A DNA stretch of 63,246 bases, taken from contig JACCWE010000001.1 in NCBI GenBank assembly GCA_013697785.1, forward strand, positions 1 to 63,246, given 5' to 3'. Position 1 is the first letter of the stretch; every line of letters begins with the position of its first letter. The stretch is from Gemmatimonadaceae bacterium (GTDB lineage: Bacteria; Gemmatimonadota; Gemmatimonadetes; Gemmatimonadales; Gemmatimonadaceae). The notes under the pieces are model-generated. The model was not told the DNA's origin. It saw only the letters and a program-made list of their open reading frames with translations, and searched no databases. Position numbers and translations under genes: made by a program. Positions 32,662-54,862 of this stretch are shown here, one piece after another.

Positions 32662-32677
32662 TCAGCTACATGATTTC

Positions 32678-33058
32678 GGATGATCGGACGGTCGCGACGG
32701 CATTTAATGTCATCGAGGAAAGTCCGGGCTCCAAAGGGCAAACCGCCAGGTAACACCTGGGCGCCGTGCATCCACTCGTGGATGCACGGCGACGGACAGT
32801 GCCACAGAAAACAAACCGCCGGCATTGAATCGCCGGTAAGGGTGAAAAGGTGAGGTAAGAGCTCACCGCACAATCAGCAATGATTGTGGCAGGGTAAACC
32901 CCGGCCGGAGCAAGGCCAAATAGGCGGCGAGGGATGGCCCATCCCGCTCAAGACGCCGCGGGTAGGCTGCTAGAGTGTGCGAGTGATCGTATACCGAGAG
33001 AAATGACCGTCCGACTGGGAAACCAATCGACAAAACCCGGCTTATAGATCATCCAACT
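32678..33058 (+). ncRNA. rnpB: RNase P RNA, bacterial type A
   Basis: Catalytic RNA for tRNA 5' maturation, about 380 nt. P1 is formed by GGATGATC (32678) with GATCATCC (33047). The universally conserved blocks GAGGAAAGTCCGGGCTCC (CR I), ACAGTGCCACAGAAA, AGGGTAAACCCC, and AGANNAATG-type GAGAAATGACCGTCC, are present; the 3' end has ACAAAACCCGGCTTATAG. P12 is an unusually perfect long hairpin (CGCCGTGCATCCAC with its complement, 32762-32791). A hairpin terminator follows. The protein partner rnpA is 4 kb away. Confidence 0.95.
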
Positions 33059-33067
33059 CATGTTTTC

Positions 33068-44887: not shown

Positions 44888-45490
44888 GTGAGCGCGCGCC
44901 GCTCGCCGTTCGCGCGTATCGTCGCGGCGCTCCTCGTGTTCGCGCTGGCGTTCTGGCTGTCGTTCATCGTCGCGATCGTGGATTCCGGGCGTCGCGACGA
45001 CGCGGCCCACGCCGATGCCATCGTCGTCCTCGGCGCTGCCCAGTACGAGGGGCATCCCTCGCCGGTGCTGAAGGCTCGGCTCGACCACGCGGCAGAGCTG
45101 TGGGCGCGAGGGCTGGCGCCGCGGATGATCGTCACCGGCGGGCGCGGGGTCGGGGATACCACCAGCGAGGCCGCCGTTGGGATGCGCTACCTGGTTCAGC
45201 GCGGGGTGCCTGCCGACTCCATTTCCATGGATACGGAAGGGCTCACGACCAGCCAGTCTATGGTAGCGGTGCGCCGTTTCCTCGGTAAAAGGCAGTCTCC
45301 AGCGGTGATTCTGGTGAGCGATCCCTTTCACATGCTGAGGCTGTCCATTCTCGCCCGCCGACTTCGCATGAGTCCGATGCTTTCGCCGACACGGACAAGC
45401 CCGATATCCACACGAGCTGGACAGCAGCTTCGGTACGTCCTGGCGGAATCAATCAAGGCCCCGTACGCGCTCCTAATTGGTGTCCGCTAA
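44888..45490 (+). CDS. YdcF-like (DUF218) membrane protein
   Basis: 200 aa. One membrane helix (IVAALLVFALAFWLSFIVAIV) is followed by the DUF218 domain: ADAIVVLGAAQYEG, RLDHAAELWARGLAPRMIVTGG, TSEAAVGMRYLVQRGVP, VILVSDPFHMLR. The family includes SanA/ElyC/YdcF envelope proteins. GTG start at 44888. Confidence 0.88.
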   Translation: MSARRSPFARIVAALLVFALAFWLSFIVAIVDSGRRDDAAHADAIVVLGAAQYEGHPSPVLKARLDHAAELWARGLAPRMIVTGGRGVGDTTSEAAVGMRYLVQRGVPADSISMDTEGLTTSQSMVAVRRFLGKRQSPAVILVSDPFHMLRLSILARRLRMSPMLSPTRTSPISTRAGQQLRYVLAESIKAPYALLIGVR

Positions 45491-46001
45491 TCGTCGCGAG
45501 AACGCCATTTCAGCCGATCGTGCAGGTGCTTCCATGGCCAATGTCACAGGTTCCCTCTTGCGCTAAAGCCAATGGAATAGTCACATTGGAGCCGCGAAGT
45601 GTCACATTACGTTAACGTTTGAAACGAAAGGGCTCGAGCAAGTCGGCGGGCTCCACCATCGTATGTCGTTCTCAACGCGGGTAGCTACCATGCCCCACGT
45701 CGTAGCTGTTCCCGAATACTCTGCCGAATCCTGCTGCTCGGTCGGCGAGATCAATCGAAAGAGACTGTTGATCGCCCGCGAGCTGCGCCACCGAGCGCTC
45801 GCGTGCGACGGAAAAGGTCATCGCCATCCTGCCCGCAGCATCCCCTTCCCACTATCCGGCCTCACCTCGCCTCCCGAATTCAGGGACTCGATCGGTGCGC
45901 CCCGGCAATTCGCCGGCAACCAAAGAAGTGCGTAGCAGCGTCATGTTGGCTCATTGCAGGAAGGGAGCAATTCCCCCCACGTGTTTTCCGGAGGTTCTTG
46001 A
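45491..46001 (+). other. 511-nt leader of the PQQ dehydrogenase gene, no clear gene
   Basis: Contains CCAATGT (45538) and ACATTGG (45583) as inverted copies, GTCACA motifs at about 45544, 45580 and 45601, and a palindrome ACGTTAACGT (45609-45618). A 90-codon frame at 45663-45935 has no recognisable homology and a poor start context. A strong GGAGG lies before the ATG at 46002. No promoter of consensus type was found. Confidence 0.4.
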
Positions 46002-47741
46002 ATGCGTATGACTCGTACTGTGGCGTTCGTCGTCGGCGGGCTGGTGCTCGCGACCACGTTGCGCGCACAGGAGCAGGTGGAAACGATCACGAAGAAGACC
46101 GCCACGCGTGAGCCGACGTTCACGAACGTCACAGATGACATGCTCAAGAACGCACGGTCCGATGGAAAGAACTGGGCGATCTATGGTCGTGACTACACCA
46201 ACCAGCGCTATTCGCCTCTCGCGCAGGTCACGAGCGCGAACGTCGGCTCGCTCAAGCTGTCGTGGATGTTCCAGACCGGCATCTCGCGCCTCGGATCATT
46301 CGAAACGAGTCCTGCGGTCGTGGACGGCGTCATGTATCTCACGACTCCGTACAACACGGCAATGGCGGTGAATGCGCGCACGGGCCAGCAAATCTGGCGC
46401 TACGAGCACAAGCCGAGCATCACCGCTCCGATCTATTGCTGCGGTCCGAACAATCGCGGCGTCGCGATCTCGGGCGGCACGGTGTACATGGGCACGCTTG
46501 ATGCGCGACTCGTTGCGCTGGACGCGAAGACGGGCGCAGTGAAATGGGACGTCGAAGTCGCGGATCCAGAGGCGGGCTACAGCCTCACGATCACGCCGCT
46601 CATCGTCGACAACTCAGTCATCGTCGGCAGCTCGGGCGCCGAGTACGGCATTCGCGGATTCGTTCGCGCGTACAACAAGGACGATGGCAAGCCGATGTGG
46701 ACGTTCTACACGCTGCCGGACAAGGGATGGGAAGGCAACTTCGCCGAGAAGACGGGCGAGGGCGAAGACCTCAAGCGGAACATCCCCGCGGAAAAGGCGG
46801 CGATGGCGCAGTACGGTGATGCATGGAAGCGCGGCGGCGGCTCGGTCTGGATGACGCCGGCGTACGATCCCGCGTCGCACAACATCTTCTTCGCAGTGGG
46901 CAATCCGTCGCCCGATCTCGATGGCACGGTGCGTCCCGGCGACAACCTGTACACGGAGTCGATCGTCGCGATCGATGCGCGCACGGGTGAGTACAAGTGG
47001 CATTACCAGGAGGTTCCGCACGATGTGTGGGACTTCGATGCCGTGAGCCCGCCGGTCATTGTGAAGCTGAAAAACGGCAAAACGGCGGTCGCGGAAGCCG
47101 GCAAAACGGCGTTCGTCTACGTGCTCGATGCGGAGACGGGCAAGCTGATCCGCAAGTCGGATGAGTTTAACAAGCACGAGAACTACTTCGTGCAGCCAAC
47201 GGCCGACGGCGTGCGCATGCTGCCTGGCGCGAACGGCGGATCGGAGTGGTCGCCGACGGCGGTGAATCCGAAGCTCGGATACATGTACGTGCTCGGACTC
47301 GAGCAGCCGATGAACTACATCACGCATTCGGCGCCGCTCGAGAAGGGAAAGCTCTGGCTCGGCTCTGCGTTCAAGGCCGTCCCGGGCGAGAAGCAGTGGG
47401 GAACGTTCACGGCAATCAACCTGAACACGGGCAAGCGGGCGTGGCAGGTGAAGACTGATCAGCCGATGATCGGTGGCGCGCTGGCGACGGCCGGAAATCT
47501 GGTCTTCACGGGCGAAGGCAACGGTCACTTCAATGCGTACAACGCGACCACAGGGAAGACGCTGTGGACGTTCAACGGCGGCGCCGGCTGCAATGCACCG
47601 CCGGTGACGTACTCACTCGACGGCAAGCAGTACATCGCGGTCGCGTGTGGTGGCAACTACCAGCTCGGCTATCCGCTCGGCGATGCCGTGCTGGTGTTCG
47701 CGCTTCCCGGCGGAGCGCCGGCGGCGAAGAAGGGGCAATAA
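46002..47741 (+). CDS. PQQ-dependent alcohol dehydrogenase with lanthanide-type Asp pair
   Basis: 579-aa periplasmic quinoprotein with signal peptide (VAFVVGGLVLATTLRAQ) and the eight-bladed propeller repeats (NVGSLKLSW, GQQIWRY, GKTLWTF). Adjacent Cys C146-C147 form the ring near PQQ. The catalytic Asp is D344 in HDVWDFD, and D346, two residues on, is the extra Asp that coordinates lanthanides in XoxF/PedH. It lacks the Trp-Asn-Pro GNP segment of XoxF, with GNPSPDLDG instead, so it belongs to another PQQ alcohol dehydrogenase clade; methanol, ethanol or other alcohols are possible substrates. Confidence 0.9.
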   Translation: MRMTRTVAFVVGGLVLATTLRAQEQVETITKKTATREPTFTNVTDDMLKNARSDGKNWAIYGRDYTNQRYSPLAQVTSANVGSLKLSWMFQTGISRLGSFETSPAVVDGVMYLTTPYNTAMAVNARTGQQIWRYEHKPSITAPIYCCGPNNRGVAISGGTVYMGTLDARLVALDAKTGAVKWDVEVADPEAGYSLTITPLIVDNSVIVGSSGAEYGIRGFVRAYNKDDGKPMWTFYTLPDKGWEGNFAEKTGEGEDLKRNIPAEKAAMAQYGDAWKRGGGSVWMTPAYDPASHNIFFAVGNPSPDLDGTVRPGDNLYTESIVAIDARTGEYKWHYQEVPHDVWDFDAVSPPVIVKLKNGKTAVAEAGKTAFVYVLDAETGKLIRKSDEFNKHENYFVQPTADGVRMLPGANGGSEWSPTAVNPKLGYMYVLGLEQPMNYITHSAPLEKGKLWLGSAFKAVPGEKQWGTFTAINLNTGKRAWQVKTDQPMIGGALATAGNLVFTGEGNGHFNAYNATTGKTLWTFNGGAGCNAPPVTYSLDGKQYIAVACGGNYQLGYPLGDAVLVFALPGGAPAAKKGQ

Positions 47742-47799: not shown

Positions 47800-48189
47800 A
47801 TGGTGGGCAGTCAGAAAAGATTGTTGATGCTTGGAACGCTGGGGCTCGGACTTGTGTTGGGTAGCGGAGTTGCGAGGGCGGGCGAACAGCAGAGCTCGCC
47901 ACAGCTCGCTGGACGTGACTGGCAGGGGTTCGGTCCGAAGGAGAAGGACGCGTACGTCGCTGGCTTCATCGCGGGTGCGGCGGTACGTGGCACGGCGGCG
48001 GCGTCGGGGATCGACACGACGCCGAGCAAGGCGATAGATGCGATGCGGGCAGCGAAGCAGATGCCATTTCCGTTTTCGGTTTCCGTTTACGCATCACAGA
48101 TCGACGATTACTACTGGTGGGAAAATCATTTGGACATTCCAATCGTCGATGTTATGGTCAGAACCAATTTTCAGCTGCACTCACATTGA
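47800..48189 (+). CDS. Small periplasmic protein of unknown function
   Basis: 129 aa. The ATG at 47800 after GTGGAGG gives a signal peptide (KRLLMLGTLGLGLVLGSGVARA, cut before GEQQ). The mature part has DWQGFGPKEKDAYVAGFIAGAAV, an amphipathic helix, and a YYWWENHLDIPIVDVMVRTNF tail rich in aromatics. Starts upstream in frame would run into non-secretory sequence. It lies between the PQQ dehydrogenase and the porin; no family recognised. Confidence 0.7.
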   Translation: MVGSQKRLLMLGTLGLGLVLGSGVARAGEQQSSPQLAGRDWQGFGPKEKDAYVAGFIAGAAVRGTAAASGIDTTPSKAIDAMRAAKQMPFPFSVSVYASQIDDYYWWENHLDIPIVDVMVRTNFQLHSH

Positions 48190-48369
48190 AATCGAATCGC
48201 GCTCTATGCGGCGCACACCCGTTCACGCGGAGGTGGCACTCGAAACTCGGGTGAAGGAAGCTCGTATGATGGTGTTGTTCCGATCTCTTCGAGATCAAAG
48301 GATTCGTTGGCGCTCGAGTTTTTTCGCGGTCCTTGTCTCTCGTTTTTCACTAGTCTTGGAGAAGCAAGC

Positions 48370-49662
48370 ATGAAAAGAATTGCAATCGTCACATGTGCAC
48401 TTGCGTTGGCGGCAGGGACTGCCAATGCGCAGGGGCTCACGATGCAGATGAGCAATGGTTGGAATTTCTCGTTCTCGGGTAACGTGAACGCGTTCCTCGT
48501 TTATACGGATGGGAAGTGCAACACGACGGCTCTCGCCGGCGCCGGCAGCACTGGCGGATGCGGATTCCCCGGTGGGCTCGTTTCGACGGGTGAGGGATCG
48601 AAGGCGTCCGCGATTCGCACGGGTCTCCTTCCCGCGTTCGCGACGTTCGAAGCGAAGGGCAAGGAAGGCGGCGTCGATCTCGGCGTGCACTTCGGCTTTG
48701 CTCCGCAGATCCAAAACGCCAACGGCGTGCACGACAATTTCGGAAACGGCACGCAAGCGGGCGCGCAGATCGACATGCGCCAGGTGTACCTGACGGCTGG
48801 TGGTACCTGGGGACAAATCCTCGCCGGTCGTGAGATCGGTCTCTATCAGCGCGGCAACATTCTCAACGACATGACGCTCTTCGGCGTCGGCCCCGCGGGC
48901 GGAACCGGCTTCGGTGCCGGCGGCGGGACAACGCTCGGCCGCATCGGCTACGGCTACGTCTATCCGAACTTCGTTGCGCAGATGACGTACAGCAGCCCGG
49001 CCACGAGCCCCGCGCAGATTTCGATCGGTCTTTTCGATCCGAGCGCGATCGGCGGCTCTGGTGGCTACACGCAGACCAAGATTCCGCGCGTCGAGTCCGA
49101 GGTCACGTACACGAGTCACTTCGGCGCGACGACGGCCGAAGCTCCGAATGGCGCTGACAAGTTCATGGTGTTCGCGAGCGGTGAGTGGCAGCATGCGTCC
49201 ACTCCGTCGACGAGCTCGGATTCCAAGAATTCGTACGGCGGCGCCGGTGGCGTTCGCGCGGACTTCGGCGGGCTGTCGCTCGTCGGTTCCGGCTTCTGGG
49301 GCAAGGGCATCGGCTCCGTACTGATGTTCGACTCCGGCAACGAGGTCGATGGCAACGGCGACCTCCGCACCAGCTACGGTTTCATCGGTCAGGCCGAGTT
49401 CCAGCCGATGGGCACGAAGTGGAAATTCGGAGCCAGCTATGGCGAGAACGACCTGAAGCAGTCCACCGATGACAATGATATTTACGGCAATGACAACGCC
49501 CCGTTCCTCAAGAAGAACTCGGCGATCGTCGGTTCCGTGACGTACCTTTGGACGAAGTCGCTGCGTTGGGTTGCCGAGTACACGTATTCGAAAGCGACGT
49601 CGCATGACGGTGCGAAGGCGACGGCGAATCAGGGCGCGGTCGGCATGATGCTGTTCTTCTAG
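48370..49662 (+). CDS. Outer-membrane porin
   Basis: 430 aa. Signal peptide IAIVTCALALAAGTANAQ, then alternating beta strands with Gly/aromatic girdles (GWNFSFSGNVNAFLVY, RIGYGYVYPNFVAQMTYSS, KFGASYGENDL) and a terminal Phe (GMMLFF), the BAM signal of outer-membrane beta barrels. GGAGAAG precedes the ATG at 48370. Its place in the methanol-oxidation block suggests a role in substrate or metal passage, which is inference. Confidence 0.85.
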   Translation: MKRIAIVTCALALAAGTANAQGLTMQMSNGWNFSFSGNVNAFLVYTDGKCNTTALAGAGSTGGCGFPGGLVSTGEGSKASAIRTGLLPAFATFEAKGKEGGVDLGVHFGFAPQIQNANGVHDNFGNGTQAGAQIDMRQVYLTAGGTWGQILAGREIGLYQRGNILNDMTLFGVGPAGGTGFGAGGGTTLGRIGYGYVYPNFVAQMTYSSPATSPAQISIGLFDPSAIGGSGGYTQTKIPRVESEVTYTSHFGATTAEAPNGADKFMVFASGEWQHASTPSTSSDSKNSYGGAGGVRADFGGLSLVGSGFWGKGIGSVLMFDSGNEVDGNGDLRTSYGFIGQAEFQPMGTKWKFGASYGENDLKQSTDDNDIYGNDNAPFLKKNSAIVGSVTYLWTKSLRWVAEYTYSKATSHDGAKATANQGAVGMMLFF

Positions 49663-49725: not shown

Positions 49726-50535
49726 TCAAGGATCAGGAAGCGTGATGCGCAGCGTCGCGACGTTGTCCGTGTAACTGCTCTCGCGGAGCACGCGGCAGAA
49801 GTTCTGCTCGTCGCGCACCGGACACGCGTCGGTCGAATCCGGGAGATAGGGCGGATTGACGGTGATGCGGATGAGGTACTCCCCTGGTGGCGTTGGCTGC
49901 GCCGGATCATCGAGCACGAAGTACTGCCCCGGAAGCGTGCGCACGTAGAGATCGGTCCAGCCTGCGTGAACACCCTGATTCCCGTGCTCCGTGAGTGTGC
50001 CGCAGCTGCGATAGACCCAGCTTTGCGCATCGACACCGGGGAGAAATGGCTCGCTGTCGTCGAGGCAGAAGCCGCGCTTGCGCGCAAAGTTCGGCGTGCC
50101 GAGTGCGCCGCCCTCGAGGAGTGGAAGAAGCTCGTACGTCGCGTAGTGCTTGTAGTGGAAATGATTGTGGCAGGGCGCGTATTCGAAGAGCCCGTCCGTG
50201 TCGGAGAAGTTGCCGTCGTGATTCGGATCGATGTGCGCGAGCGGATCGCCGACGTACGCATCGGCGTCGCCTATGTTGGGCGTGCTCACGGAGAAGCGGA
50301 GCACTCTGTGGAAGCCCGGCGTAACTCCGTATTCGATGGACGTGCACGATCCGGCTTCGACCTGGTCGCTGCCGATCGTCCACGAGCTCGCGAGTCTCGC
50401 GGAGTCGACGACGAAGTTCGCGAGGCCATCGAGATCGGGAATGCCGTGATCACCGCCGGTGGACGAATCGGAACAGGCGGCGAGCAGCGTTGCCACGAGG
50501 AGTGGTGAGCATCGAACGAAACGAATCAGTCGCAT
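49726..50535 (-). CDS. Lysyl-oxidase-like lipoprotein
   Basis: 269 aa with a lipobox LLAACS (C21). Homology to the lysyl oxidase catalytic domain is clear: copper-binding PCHNHFHYKHYATYEL (H123, H125, H127), the ARKRGFCLDD segment matching the HKASFCLED that holds the LTQ lysine (K153), and GWTDLYVRTLPGQY with the probable LTQ Tyr Y197. Such copper amine oxidases deaminate lysine side chains; in bacteria the substrates are unknown. It sits opposite in strand between the porin and xoxF. Confidence 0.82.
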   Translation of the reverse strand: MRLIRFVRCSPLLVATLLAACSDSSTGGDHGIPDLDGLANFVVDSARLASSWTIGSDQVEAGSCTSIEYGVTPGFHRVLRFSVSTPNIGDADAYVGDPLAHIDPNHDGNFSDTDGLFEYAPCHNHFHYKHYATYELLPLLEGGALGTPNFARKRGFCLDDSEPFLPGVDAQSWVYRSCGTLTEHGNQGVHAGWTDLYVRTLPGQYFVLDDPAQPTPPGEYLIRITVNPPYLPDSTDACPVRDEQNFCRVLRESSYTDNVATLRITLPDP

Positions 50536-51202: not shown

Positions 51203-53005
51203 ATGAACCGTGTCACACGTTTCACCTCTTGGGCGGTCGTTGCTGGTCTCGCCGTGGGCGCCGCAAGCGCCAATGCGCAGGATCTGACAACGATGTCCAA
51301 GGATACCAAGCAGTGGGTCATGACCGGGCGGACGTACGATCTCCAGCGCTACAGCCCCCTCGATCAGGTCACCACGTCGAATGTGCATCATCTACAAGTG
51401 TCGTGGACGATGTCCACAGGCACGCTGCGCGGACACGAGGGCAATCCTCTCGTCATCGGCAGCACGATGTATCTCCACAGCTCGTTCCCGAACAAGGTCT
51501 ACGCGCTCGATCTCGCGAAGCCGGGCGCACCACAGATCTGGCAGTTCACGCCTGAGCAGTCGTCCGACGCGATCGCGATTGCGTGCTGCGACGTCGTCAA
51601 CCGTGGTCTTGCGTTCGATCCGAAGACCAACCGCCTCGTCATCGAGCTCCTCGCCGGTGATGTGCTCGCGCTCGATGCGAAGACGGGCAAACAGGCGTGG
51701 CGTGTGAAGTCGGTCGACTTCAAGAAGGGCGAGACCATGACCAACGCCCCGCTGATCGTCGACGACCTCGTTCTCACCGGTATCTCCGGCGGAGAGTTCG
51801 GCGTCCGCGGCCGTATCACCGCCTTCAACATGGCGGACGGCAAGGAAGTGTGGCGCACGTATTCCACCGGTCCCGACAAGGATGTCGGCATCACGGAGAA
51901 CACGCTCAAGTCCCCCTATGCGTCCGCGCAGGGCAAGGACCTCGGCGTTTCGACGTGGCAGGGTGACGAGTGGATGCGCGGCGGCGGCACGACGTGGGGC
52001 TGGTATTCCTACGATCCTGACCTCAAGCTGTTCTATCACGGCTCAGGAAATCCGGGCTCATGGAACCCCGACCAGCGTCCTGGCGACAACAAGTGGTCGA
52101 TGTCCCTTTGGGCGCAGAACCCGAAGAACGGCGAAGTGAAGTGGGTCTACCAGATGACGCCGCACGATGCATGGGATTATGATGGCGTCAACGAGAACGT
52201 GCTGTTCGACAAGGGCAGCCAGAAGCTTCTCGCGCACTTCGATCGTAACGGCTTCGGCTACACGCTCGACCGCACGACCGGCAAGGTGATCGTCGCCAAG
52301 CCGTTCGGCCCGACGAACTGGGCCAAGAGCGTCGACCTCACGACGGGCCGTCCTGTCGAGGATCCGACCAAGCGCACGAGCGCCAAGGGCAACACCGAGG
52401 GCATCTGCCCGGCCGCCATTGGCTTCAAGGATCAGCAGCCGTCGGCATACTCGCCGCAGACTGGCCTGTTCTACGTGCCGACCAACAACATTTGCATGGA
52501 CTACGAAGGCGTCGAGGTGAAGTATGCCGCGGGCCAGCCGTATGTTGGTGCAATCGTTCGCATGTTCCCGGGCCCCGGTGGAAACCGCGGTGCATTCATC
52601 GCCTGGGATCCGATGTCCGGCACGATCAAGTGGAGCATCAAGGAGAACCTCGCCGCGTACGGCGGCGCTATGACCACCGGCGGCGGCCTGGTTTTCTATG
52701 GAACGATGGAAGGTTGGCTGAAGGCGGCAGATGCGAAGACGGGCAAGGTGCTCTGGCAGTTCAAGACGCCGTCCGGCATCATCGGCAACCCGATGACGTA
52801 CGTCGGTCCTGATGGCAAGCAGTACATCGCCATTCTCTCCGGTATCGGAGGCTGGGCCGGAATCGGCGTCGCCGCCGGCATCGGTGCTGAAGATCCGACC
52901 GCCGGTCTCGGCGCGCTCGGCGCCTTCGGTGACGCGGGCAGCTACACGAACCAGGGTGGTGTGCTCACCGTGTTCGCGCTCGATGACCCGATGAAGAAGA
53001 AGTAA
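51203..53005 (+). CDS. xoxF: Lanthanide-dependent methanol dehydrogenase XoxF
   Basis: 600 aa, periplasmic, signal peptide ending ANA before Q. XoxF hallmarks: C128-C129 adjacent Cys, GNPGSWNPDQRPGDNKWSMSLWA, and the catalytic Asp D325 with lanthanide Asp D327 in HDAWDYDGVNE; calcium MxaF enzymes have Ala at the second position. The propeller repeats are complete and length fits the family (about 600). It oxidises methanol to formaldehyde or formate using PQQ, and passes electrons to XoxG cytochrome. xoxJ and xoxG follow on the same strand; the hairpin at 53034 separates it from them. Confidence 0.95.
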   Translation: MNRVTRFTSWAVVAGLAVGAASANAQDLTTMSKDTKQWVMTGRTYDLQRYSPLDQVTTSNVHHLQVSWTMSTGTLRGHEGNPLVIGSTMYLHSSFPNKVYALDLAKPGAPQIWQFTPEQSSDAIAIACCDVVNRGLAFDPKTNRLVIELLAGDVLALDAKTGKQAWRVKSVDFKKGETMTNAPLIVDDLVLTGISGGEFGVRGRITAFNMADGKEVWRTYSTGPDKDVGITENTLKSPYASAQGKDLGVSTWQGDEWMRGGGTTWGWYSYDPDLKLFYHGSGNPGSWNPDQRPGDNKWSMSLWAQNPKNGEVKWVYQMTPHDAWDYDGVNENVLFDKGSQKLLAHFDRNGFGYTLDRTTGKVIVAKPFGPTNWAKSVDLTTGRPVEDPTKRTSAKGNTEGICPAAIGFKDQQPSAYSPQTGLFYVPTNNICMDYEGVEVKYAAGQPYVGAIVRMFPGPGGNRGAFIAWDPMSGTIKWSIKENLAAYGGAMTTGGGLVFYGTMEGWLKAADAKTGKVLWQFKTPSGIIGNPMTYVGPDGKQYIAILSGIGGWAGIGVAAGIGAEDPTAGLGALGAFGDAGSYTNQGGVLTVFALDDPMKKK

Positions 53006-53033: not shown

Positions 53034-53069
53034 AAACCCGGTGTCGAAGCTTGCTTCGGCACCGGGTTT
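53034..53069 (+). terminator. Strong hairpin terminator after xoxF
   Basis: AAACCCGGTGTCGAAG pairs with CTTCGGCACCGGGTTT across a CTTG loop (16-bp stem with one G-U), followed by GTTC. It lies 28 nt after the xoxF stop and 72 nt before xoxJ, so transcripts of xoxF would partly end here. Confidence 0.85.
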
Positions 53070-53140
53070 GTTCGTACCCTCAGGGAACTCGAATCAGTAG
53101 CAACCGTATGAAGTACATGCAGACGAAACGCGGAGTACAC

Positions 53141-53986
53141 ATGAAGGGAACGGCCATTGCGCTCGCATTGCTCGTCACGCTCGCCGGACGAGGCGCAGCG
53201 CAAGGAAATGAGCCGGTGATCCTTCTGAGCCCGGACAGCATGTGGAAGCAGAAGCGCAATCTGCGCGTCTGCGCTGATCCGCAGAACATGCCGTTTACGA
53301 GCCAAAAGCGTGAAGGGTTCGATAACAAGATCGCGGACGTGATCGCCCGCGAGCTCGGGGACACCGTGTCCTATGCGTGGTGGCCGAGCAGGCGTGGCTA
53401 TCTACGCAACACGCTGAGCGCAGGGACGTGTGATCTCGTGATCGGCGTGCCGATCGGGTTCGATCCCGTCGCAACCTCGAAGCCGTACTACCGCTCCACG
53501 TATTACATCGTGACCCGCACCGACAAGAAGCTCGACATCACTTCGCTCGATGATCCGCGCCTCAAAAAGCTTCGAGTCGGCGTCAATCTGCTGGATGGAG
53601 ACTACACCAACACCCCTCCCGCACACGCGCTCGGCGCACACGGCATCATCGGGCCAGGCGTCGTTGGGTTCGCGGGCTTTTACGACGACGTGCACCACCC
53701 GGGCGAGATCATCGACTCACTCGCCAAGGGCAATATCGACGTCGCGCTGGTGTGGGGCCCGATCGCAGGGTGGTTCGCGAAGCAGTCCGGGGTGCCGATG
53801 ACTCTGACGGCGCTGCCGGATTCGGACAGTGTGGATCTGCCGTTCGCGTATTCGGTGGCTATCGGAACTCGTCGCTCGGACCGCGAGCTGCGAACGCTGA
53901 TTGATGAGATACTCGTTAGAAAGAAGTCTGAGATCGACAAAATTCTCATGGAATACAACGTGCCTACAATAGGCACCACGCGCTGA
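53141..53986 (+). CDS. xoxJ: XoxJ-like periplasmic binding protein
   Basis: 281 aa, signal peptide IALALLVTLAGRGAA. The mature part has LRVCADPQNMPFTSQKREGFDNKIADVIARELG, CDLVIGVPIGFD, TSKPYYRSTYYIVTR and VALVWGPIAGWFA, typical of the XoxJ/MxaJ solute-binding fold found beside xoxF. XoxJ is thought to help activate or assemble XoxF. The ATG at 53141 is chosen because GGAG (53132) is well placed; two upstream in-frame ATGs would add a poor extension. Confidence 0.9.
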   Translation: MKGTAIALALLVTLAGRGAAQGNEPVILLSPDSMWKQKRNLRVCADPQNMPFTSQKREGFDNKIADVIARELGDTVSYAWWPSRRGYLRNTLSAGTCDLVIGVPIGFDPVATSKPYYRSTYYIVTRTDKKLDITSLDDPRLKKLRVGVNLLDGDYTNTPPAHALGAHGIIGPGVVGFAGFYDDVHHPGEIIDSLAKGNIDVALVWGPIAGWFAKQSGVPMTLTALPDSDSVDLPFAYSVAIGTRRSDRELRTLIDEILVRKKSEIDKILMEYNVPTIGTTR

Positions 53987-54025: not shown

Positions 54026-54862
54026 ATGTCGATGAAGCGTCGTTTCGAGCTCTCCGTTTCTCCTTCCTTCGCACTCGTCGGGCGAGTGATTCTCCTGGGA
54101 AGCGCTCTTGGCTTCGCTGCGGGCTGCTCGCACAAGGACGCGGCGAAGACCGACACAACCGTCGTCGCCTCGGCTGACTCCGCAACCACGTCGACCACCA
54201 CGGTCACTGCCGGTCAGCCGTCGACGCCTGTCGAGAGCGTGTCGACAGGTGAGACGACGATCTCGGCCGATTCGAAGGCGAATCCGACGGTGGCAGCGAC
54301 GAACGTAACCACCGGAGTCGCGAAGGTCACTGAAAAACCGGCGCCTGCCGCGACGACGATGCCACACAAGGTGCACACGAAGGCGGTCACGCCTCCGGCT
54401 GCGAAAGCAACTCCGCCGGCAGCAGCGGCGATGCCGGCGGCGAAGGCGGACACTGGGCAGAAGGCCGCCACCGCAGATACGTCGAAGAAGGCTGCCGCCG
54501 CAACGGACACCTCGAAGAAGGCCACGACGGTTGCCGCCAGCGGAGATCATCTCCTCGTGTCTCCGCAGGAGTACGAGGGATGGAAGATGTTCTCCGTATA
54601 CTGCTACCGCTGTCACGGTGTCGACGCGATGGGAGGCGGCATCGCGCCGAATCTGCGTCACTCCGTGAGCTCGGAAGGAAGCGTCACGCACGACGTCTTC
54701 ATCACGACCGTCACGTACGGGCGCGTTGCGCTCGGAATGCCGACGTGGAAGGCGCTGCTGTCGCCCGAGCAGATGGAAGATCTCTGGCTCTACGTCAACG
54801 CACGCAGCTCGGGCCGTCTGGCCCCGGGCCGTCCGCACATGGGCAAGGGCGCGAACCCGTAA
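54026..54862 (+). CDS. XoxG-type c cytochrome with lipid anchor and long linker
   Basis: 278 aa. A lipobox-like GFAAGC (C34) ends an N-terminal signal. About 135 residues of Ala/Thr/Pro/Lys-rich low-complexity linker follow, then a single class I cytochrome c domain: CYRCH (C193, C196, H197) and probable Met ligand M238 in LGMPTW. The small single-heme domain fits the XoxG electron acceptor for XoxF; the anchor and linker are not usual for soluble XoxG. It follows xoxJ directly. Confidence 0.85.
   Translation: MSMKRRFELSVSPSFALVGRVILLGSALGFAAGCSHKDAAKTDTTVVASADSATTSTTTVTAGQPSTPVESVSTGETTISADSKANPTVAATNVTTGVAKVTEKPAPAATTMPHKVHTKAVTPPAAKATPPAAAAMPAAKADTGQKAATADTSKKAAAATDTSKKATTVAASGDHLLVSPQEYEGWKMFSVYCYRCHGVDAMGGGIAPNLRHSVSSEGSVTHDVFITTVTYGRVALGMPTWKALLSPEQMEDLWLYVNARSSGRLAPGRPHMGKGANP

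Follow-up and report, generated by a model that had tools for sequence, protein, structure and literature searches.

A clade of PQQ-dependent alcohol dehydrogenases distinct from XoxF and PedH/ExaF, with a lanthanide-type aspartate pair and a linked small secreted protein

Described lanthanide enzymes and the new locus

Among the PQQ-dependent alcohol dehydrogenases (PQQ-ADHs), the enzymes whose lanthanide (Ln) dependence has been confirmed biochemically are XoxF and the type 2b ADHs PedH and ExaF only (PMC11996626). The latter two are the Ln-type enzymes characterised so far outside XoxF, and further Ln-type clades have been predicted earlier (PMC11996626, PMC8561711). In the classification of Keltjens et al. 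2014, several of the PQQ-ADH types 1-9 are putatively Ln-dependent (PMC8561711, PMC6028718). Under the published rule, a D-x-D motif at the metal site indicates Ln and D-x-A/S/T indicates Ca (PMC11996626); PedH was singled out by the D-x-D rule and later proven to be Ln-dependent (PMC5487730). In the Gemmatimonadetes, XoxF3 systems comprising XoxG, XoxJ and small hypothetical proteins have been described, and a second PQQ-ADH goes unmentioned in the available part of that account (PMC10875860).

The window analysed here is a stretch of 63,246 nucleotides from a soil bacterium of the Gemmatimonadaceae (GCA_013697785.1, contig JACCWE010000001.1, forward strand), whose nearest named relatives are Gemmatimonadaceae MAGs. 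Its genome gives six PQQ dehydrogenase (PQQ-DH) matches in total, one of which is an intact open reading frame with a product of 579 aa:

45990..45994, + strand: Shine-Dalgarno-like GGAGG, 7 nt 5' of the PQQ-ADH ATG (from the sequence)
46002..47741, + strand: PQQ-dependent alcohol dehydrogenase of the GNPSPDLxG clade (profile match, tree, AF2 model)

The product reaches 507 bits against the TIGR03075 profile, over the cut-off of 480, and has a Sec-type signal peptide at about residues 1-22, followed by an eight-bladed propeller devoid of a haem c motif. The C-terminal tail beyond the propeller is at most 14 residues long in the clade, and a CxxCH motif is absent from all 105 clade ORF records, a count that includes duplicates. 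We consider it reasonably probable that the enzyme is a soluble periplasmic quinoprotein ADH of a distinct clade, which uses PQQ and a lanthanide and whose substrate is probably other than methanol chiefly.

The region upstream of the gene (45400-46100) gave no riboswitch or structured RNA match in an Rfam search. A genus-conserved block with repeated GTCACATT lies in the leader at 45550-45620, likewise without an Rfam match. The motif TGTCACAT was considered as a regulatory box common to both dehydrogenases, and was rejected because, taken alone, it is not above chance (two sites found versus 1.3 expected).

Clade placement and distribution

In a careful tree (72 sequences, IQ-TREE, LG+C20, with ExaA represented by its N-terminal part only), the enzyme lies within a 39-row clade with support of 100/99 and outside the separate clade of XoxF and MxaF (100/100). 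PedH and ExaA form a separate pair (100/99) with which the enzyme is not grouped, and the quinohaemoprotein ADHs are also separate (100/99). A quick tree of 99 rows, in which the enzyme is represented by orthologues of 91-94% identity, agrees. The clade is distinct from XoxF, from PedH/ExaF and from the quinohaemoproteins. An earlier note, made from the sequence alone, had taken this gene for a non-XoxF dehydrogenase, which is borne out by the tree placement, by the residue differences detailed below and by the existence of an orthologous group across genera. The same note had regarded placement in a known Ca-dependent clade as speaking against a lanthanide enzyme, and the tree puts the enzyme outside every Ca-dependent reference clade.

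Identity to the enzyme amounts to 91-94% within the genus and 57-76% in other Gemmatimonadota. A contig scan returned at least 590 relatives, and the best 80 of these, examined for taxonomy, belong to Gemmatimonadota, Rokubacteria/Methylomirabilota, ANGP1, Burkholderiales and other Beta-, Alpha- and Gammaproteobacteria, the clade being common in Betaproteobacteria among these best 80. Cupriavidus, Paraburkholderia and Caballeronia are among the genera with close relatives. A scan of viral contigs returned no relative, and on named plasmid records close relatives are annotated generically or not at all. The branch is widespread and apparently uncharacterised.

It may already carry a type number in the scheme of Keltjens et al., types 1-9 of which form the broad class where the enzyme would be filed. 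We give about an even chance to its being one of these named, uncharacterised types (e.g. type 5, or 3, 4, 9), which would be a matter of naming and not a mechanistic rival. Such an assignment would be consistent with the putative Ln dependence of several types (PMC8561711) and, given the frequency of the clade in Betaproteobacteria, with the occurrence of type 5 in the betaproteobacterium Methyloversatilis (PMC6028718).

Metal site, fold and pocket

The residues on which the metal assignment is based were located by alignment with reference sequences:

46437..46442, + strand: Cys146-Cys147, the vicinal pair of PQQ-ADHs, in the context CCGPNNRG in the clade
46641..46643, + strand: Glu214, predicted metal ligand
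46902..46904, + strand: Asn301, predicted metal ligand, within GNPSPDLDG
47031..47033, + strand: Asp344, predicted catalytic base
47037..47039, + strand: Asp346, the additional Asp marking lanthanide-dependent PQQ-ADHs
47103..47105, + strand: Lys368, in a column that is Arg in XoxF/MxaF/PedH and Lys in the quinohaemoprotein ADHs
47244..47246, + strand: Glu415, in a column that is Asn (PedH, ADH-IIB) or Asp (most XoxF)

In comparison with 11 reference sequences, Cys146-Cys147, Glu214, Asn301 and Asp344 are all kept. Asp occupies the column of residue 346 in each of the 4 Ln-dependent references (three XoxF and PedH); in each of the 7 Ca-dependent ones (ExaA, ADH-IIB, ADH-IIG, qhEDH, AdhA and two MxaF) the residue is Ala, Ser or Thr. 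Each of the more than 85 close clade members inspected retains Glu214, Asn301, Asp344 and Asp346. The pair Asp344/Asp346 is no chance match, as the column tracks the metal in the references and both Asp are invariant in the clade. It is not rare either: most of the PQQ-DHs sampled have Asp here (64 of 72 tree rows). The earlier note was accurate in matching D344-F-D346 of PHDVWDFD to D325-Y-D327 of the neighbouring XoxF, with correct residue numbers, and in its remark that the segment after GNP differs (GNPSPDLDG, starting at residue 300). Its lanthanide-type reading is supported by the D+2 Asp together with the full ligand set and by PedH as the closest fold, although it stays at the level of prediction.

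Membrane glucose dehydrogenase is known as a Ca/Mg enzyme. Since characterised membrane glucose dehydrogenases also have D-x-D (PMC11996626), the motif is insufficient proof of Ln use, and it can be hypothesised that the clade uses Ca2+ or is promiscuous for its metal, the second Asp being ancestral and not decisive. A Ca-type PedE retains 60-80% of its activity with 10 mM Ln (PMC10409515), from which it follows that metal use can be broad, and the residues near PQQ (Lys368, Glu415 and the Gly past the Cys pair) are unlike those of all Ln references. We nevertheless judge this alternative unlikely, in view of the Ca/Ln split at the D346 column within the methanol and ethanol families and of the strict conservation of Asp346 among close clade members. 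Lanthanide use by the clade enzyme is well predicted from the complete ligands, the invariant D+2 Asp and PedH as the closest fold.

The AF2 model of the enzyme (pLDDT 79, pTM 0.85) finds its best fold match in PedH, with Z 46.7 and 37% identity at an rmsd of 2.0 over 500 residues; quinohaemoprotein ADHs and XoxF5 come next, about 2 Z below. Solved PQQ-ADHs in general match the model with Z 39-47 over about 450-510 residues. Several Ca enzymes come within 2-3 Z of PedH. The predicted fold supports membership of the family and, taken alone, is not decisive for the metal.

Within the pocket, the clade has CCGPNNRG in place of CCDxVNRG, its GNPSPDLxG segment is without the Trp that follows GNP or GNG in every reference, and GGN stands where the C-terminal Gly-Trp would be. 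The Trp that follows GNP, like the positions of Arg/Lys and of Asn, lies next to PQQ and the substrate cavity; a different substrate therefore appears likely. An equivalence between the missing C-terminal Gly-Trp and the engineered W561 of PedH was also considered and not established.

Of the known enzymes, PedH of Pseudomonas putida KT2440 (6ZCV/6ZCW), which together with ExaF of M. extorquens AM1 makes up type 2b, is both the closest sequence match and the best fold match; it is likewise soluble, periplasmic and haem-free, with DxD and the Glu and Asn ligands. It differs in belonging to a separate clade at about 34-37% identity, and in having Arg, Asn and GNPAPWN where the clade has Lys368, Glu415 and GNPSPDLDG. 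XoxF (4MAE, 6OC5, 6DAM and the neighbour at 51203) shares DxD, the Cys pair, the fold and the adjacent locus, but forms its own 100/100 clade with MxaF and has GNPxxWN, DRNGF, KDQQ and GGW in place of GNPSPDLDG, GKTAF, GGSEW and GGNYQ. The quinohaemoprotein ADHs (1KV9, 1YIQ, 1KB0, 8GY2; about 32-38% identity) have Lys at 368 as in this enzyme and, in most of them, the same Trp past the 415 column; they differ by a C-terminal cytochrome c domain and by Thr at D+2, where this enzyme has no CxxCH and an Asp.

Conserved neighbours and proposed function

Downstream of the dehydrogenase, the window contains the following genes:

47800..48189, + strand: small orphan protein, secreted, of 129 aa; its gene is a conserved neighbour of the clade gene in Gemmatimonadota and occurs in Rokubacteria and ANGP1 as well
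48370..49662, + strand: outer-membrane beta-barrel-like protein (signal peptide, C-terminal Phe)
51203..53005, + strand: xoxF, lanthanide-type methanol dehydrogenase with D325 and D327 (profile, tree)
53051..53986, + strand: xoxJ-like solute-binding protein (TIGR03871, over cut-off)
54026..54862, + strand: c-type cytochrome, xoxG-like by position, candidate electron acceptor (profile search, gene order)

The order PQQ-ADH, small secreted protein, barrel-like protein recurs in Gemmatimonadota. The barrel frame opens at 48307, with the ATG at 48370 as its likely start; the protein has no match in Pfam or NCBIfam, and its homologues are found at L047, L049, L051, L052, L055-L057 and L059-L061. 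A lysyl-oxidase-like secreted protein (PF01186) is encoded at 49726-50535 (- strand), between this unit and xoxF, and is conserved in the genus.

The least expected element is the linked small-protein family. It is present in 9 of 60 relatives, where by coordinates every strong match stands beside a clade gene, and in 17 of 298 genomes of a phylum sample, 14 of which have a clade gene at most 1.5 kb upstream, one lying at a contig edge and two being exceptions. With homologues 3' of the clade gene in Rokubacteria (L063, L064) and ANGP1 (L065) as well, the small-protein gene is almost always directly 3' of a clade PQQ-ADH gene in three phyla (L047, L049, L051, L052, L057-L061, L063-L065, L150-L164). 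The family is marked by the motifs YxxGFxAGA and VYxxQxDDFYWW, and searches of Pfam, NCBIfam and the PDB sequences gave it no convincing match. Its AF2 model predicts, at fair confidence, four helices in the core, and Foldseek gave no match with E < 0.001 for this only fair query.

The proximity of xoxF, put at some 5 kb in the earlier note, corresponds to 5.2 kb from start to start, with an intergenic gap of about 3.5 kb, and is conserved in related genera; clade members also exist with no xoxF nearby. At L051, L052/L057, L059 and L061, xoxF and xoxJ come after the unit, and so does xoxG where the contig extends that far. This order, kept in several genera, would fit an enzyme that serves as a reserve methanol dehydrogenase beside XoxF, with XoxJ and XoxG common to both. 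We regard such a role as quite improbable, since no xoxF homologue was detected near the unit at L047 and L049, and since the pocket segments are unlike those of XoxF, with the Trp after GNP and the C-terminal Gly-Trp both missing. It is further opposed by a genome that is 93% complete (G059), whose sole recognisable PQQ-DH is a clade member and which nonetheless keeps a strong pqqE. PqqE is over cut-off in the genome studied here. Of 10 genomes tested that bear the clade, 8 also have it over cut-off, the exceptions being G044 and G003 (68% complete); of 11 genomes with no close PQQ-DH, none does. From G059 and this co-occurrence, and with MAG incompleteness as a caveat, we conclude that the clade enzyme is not a mere appendage of XoxF. 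A degenerate quinoprotein devoid of PQQ catalysis, similar to the acido-empty-quinoprotein group A (TIGR04528), is highly improbable, as the enzyme's score of 371 bits for that family is far under the cut-off of 650 while the cut-off of the catalytic family is exceeded, and the base, the Cys pair and all metal ligands are present.

From the sequence, clade, ligand residues, fold prediction and gene order, all observed or computed here, we propose the following scheme for a lanthanide-dependent alcohol dehydrogenase. The enzyme would hold PQQ and a lanthanide ion, coordinated most likely by Glu214, Asn301, Asp344 and Asp346, and Asp344 would act as the base in the oxidation of an alcohol to an aldehyde. 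Because there is no haem domain or CxxCH motif, the electrons must leave to a separate cytochrome, presumably one at a time and of c-type; the cytochrome encoded 6 kb downstream is a candidate acceptor here, and in Proteobacteria the gene of a diheme c4-like cytochrome adjoins that of the clade member. Methanol is probably not the chief substrate, since XoxF has other residues around PQQ and the cavity; the neighbourhood and these residue differences make a longer or bulkier alcohol likelier. The alcohol may enter via the barrel protein encoded two genes downstream, and the small secreted protein probably serves the enzyme as a dedicated accessory protein or as a subunit.

More tentatively, the clade may represent an Ln-dependent lineage outside XoxF and PedH/ExaF with a pocket and substrates of its own, a new small periplasmic partner in Gemmatimonadota and Rokubacteria, and a matching barrel in Gemmatimonadota. 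As its members occur in soil Gemmatimonadota, in Rokubacteria and in many cultivable Burkholderiales, Ln use, if true, would extend lanthanide biology to substrates other than methanol and ethanol and to organisms that are not known to be methylotrophic. The relatives in Cupriavidus, Paraburkholderia and Caballeronia make the metal question testable now, and the partner gene is a second concrete target.

The proteobacterial loci (L068-L136; for example L088:11661-12263 and L119:9124-9843) have different neighbours from the Gemmatimonadota unit. A diheme c-type cytochrome (c4-like) stands beside the clade member at 29 of them and an ankyrin-repeat protein at 42. A PQQ dehydrogenase, a cytochrome c4 and an ankyrin protein have been reported in the variable region of an insect-symbiosis island of Burkholderiaceae (PMC9088363), the same combination as at the proteobacterial clade loci, the likeness being one of gene content alone.

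Other observations concern the remaining quinoproteins and the window at large. The sixth PQQ-DH homologue of the genome (L006, C48) is divergent: it lacks the Cys pair, has Asp for the Glu ligand and is possibly a non-canonical quinoprotein. Another homologue of the same genome (L004, C82) belongs with L033 and L054 to an odd XoxF-like subgroup in which Lys replaces Arg and the segment at KDQQP of XoxF is altered, to GGKSPASP in L004. An RNase P RNA of class A (RF00010) lies at 32676-33060.
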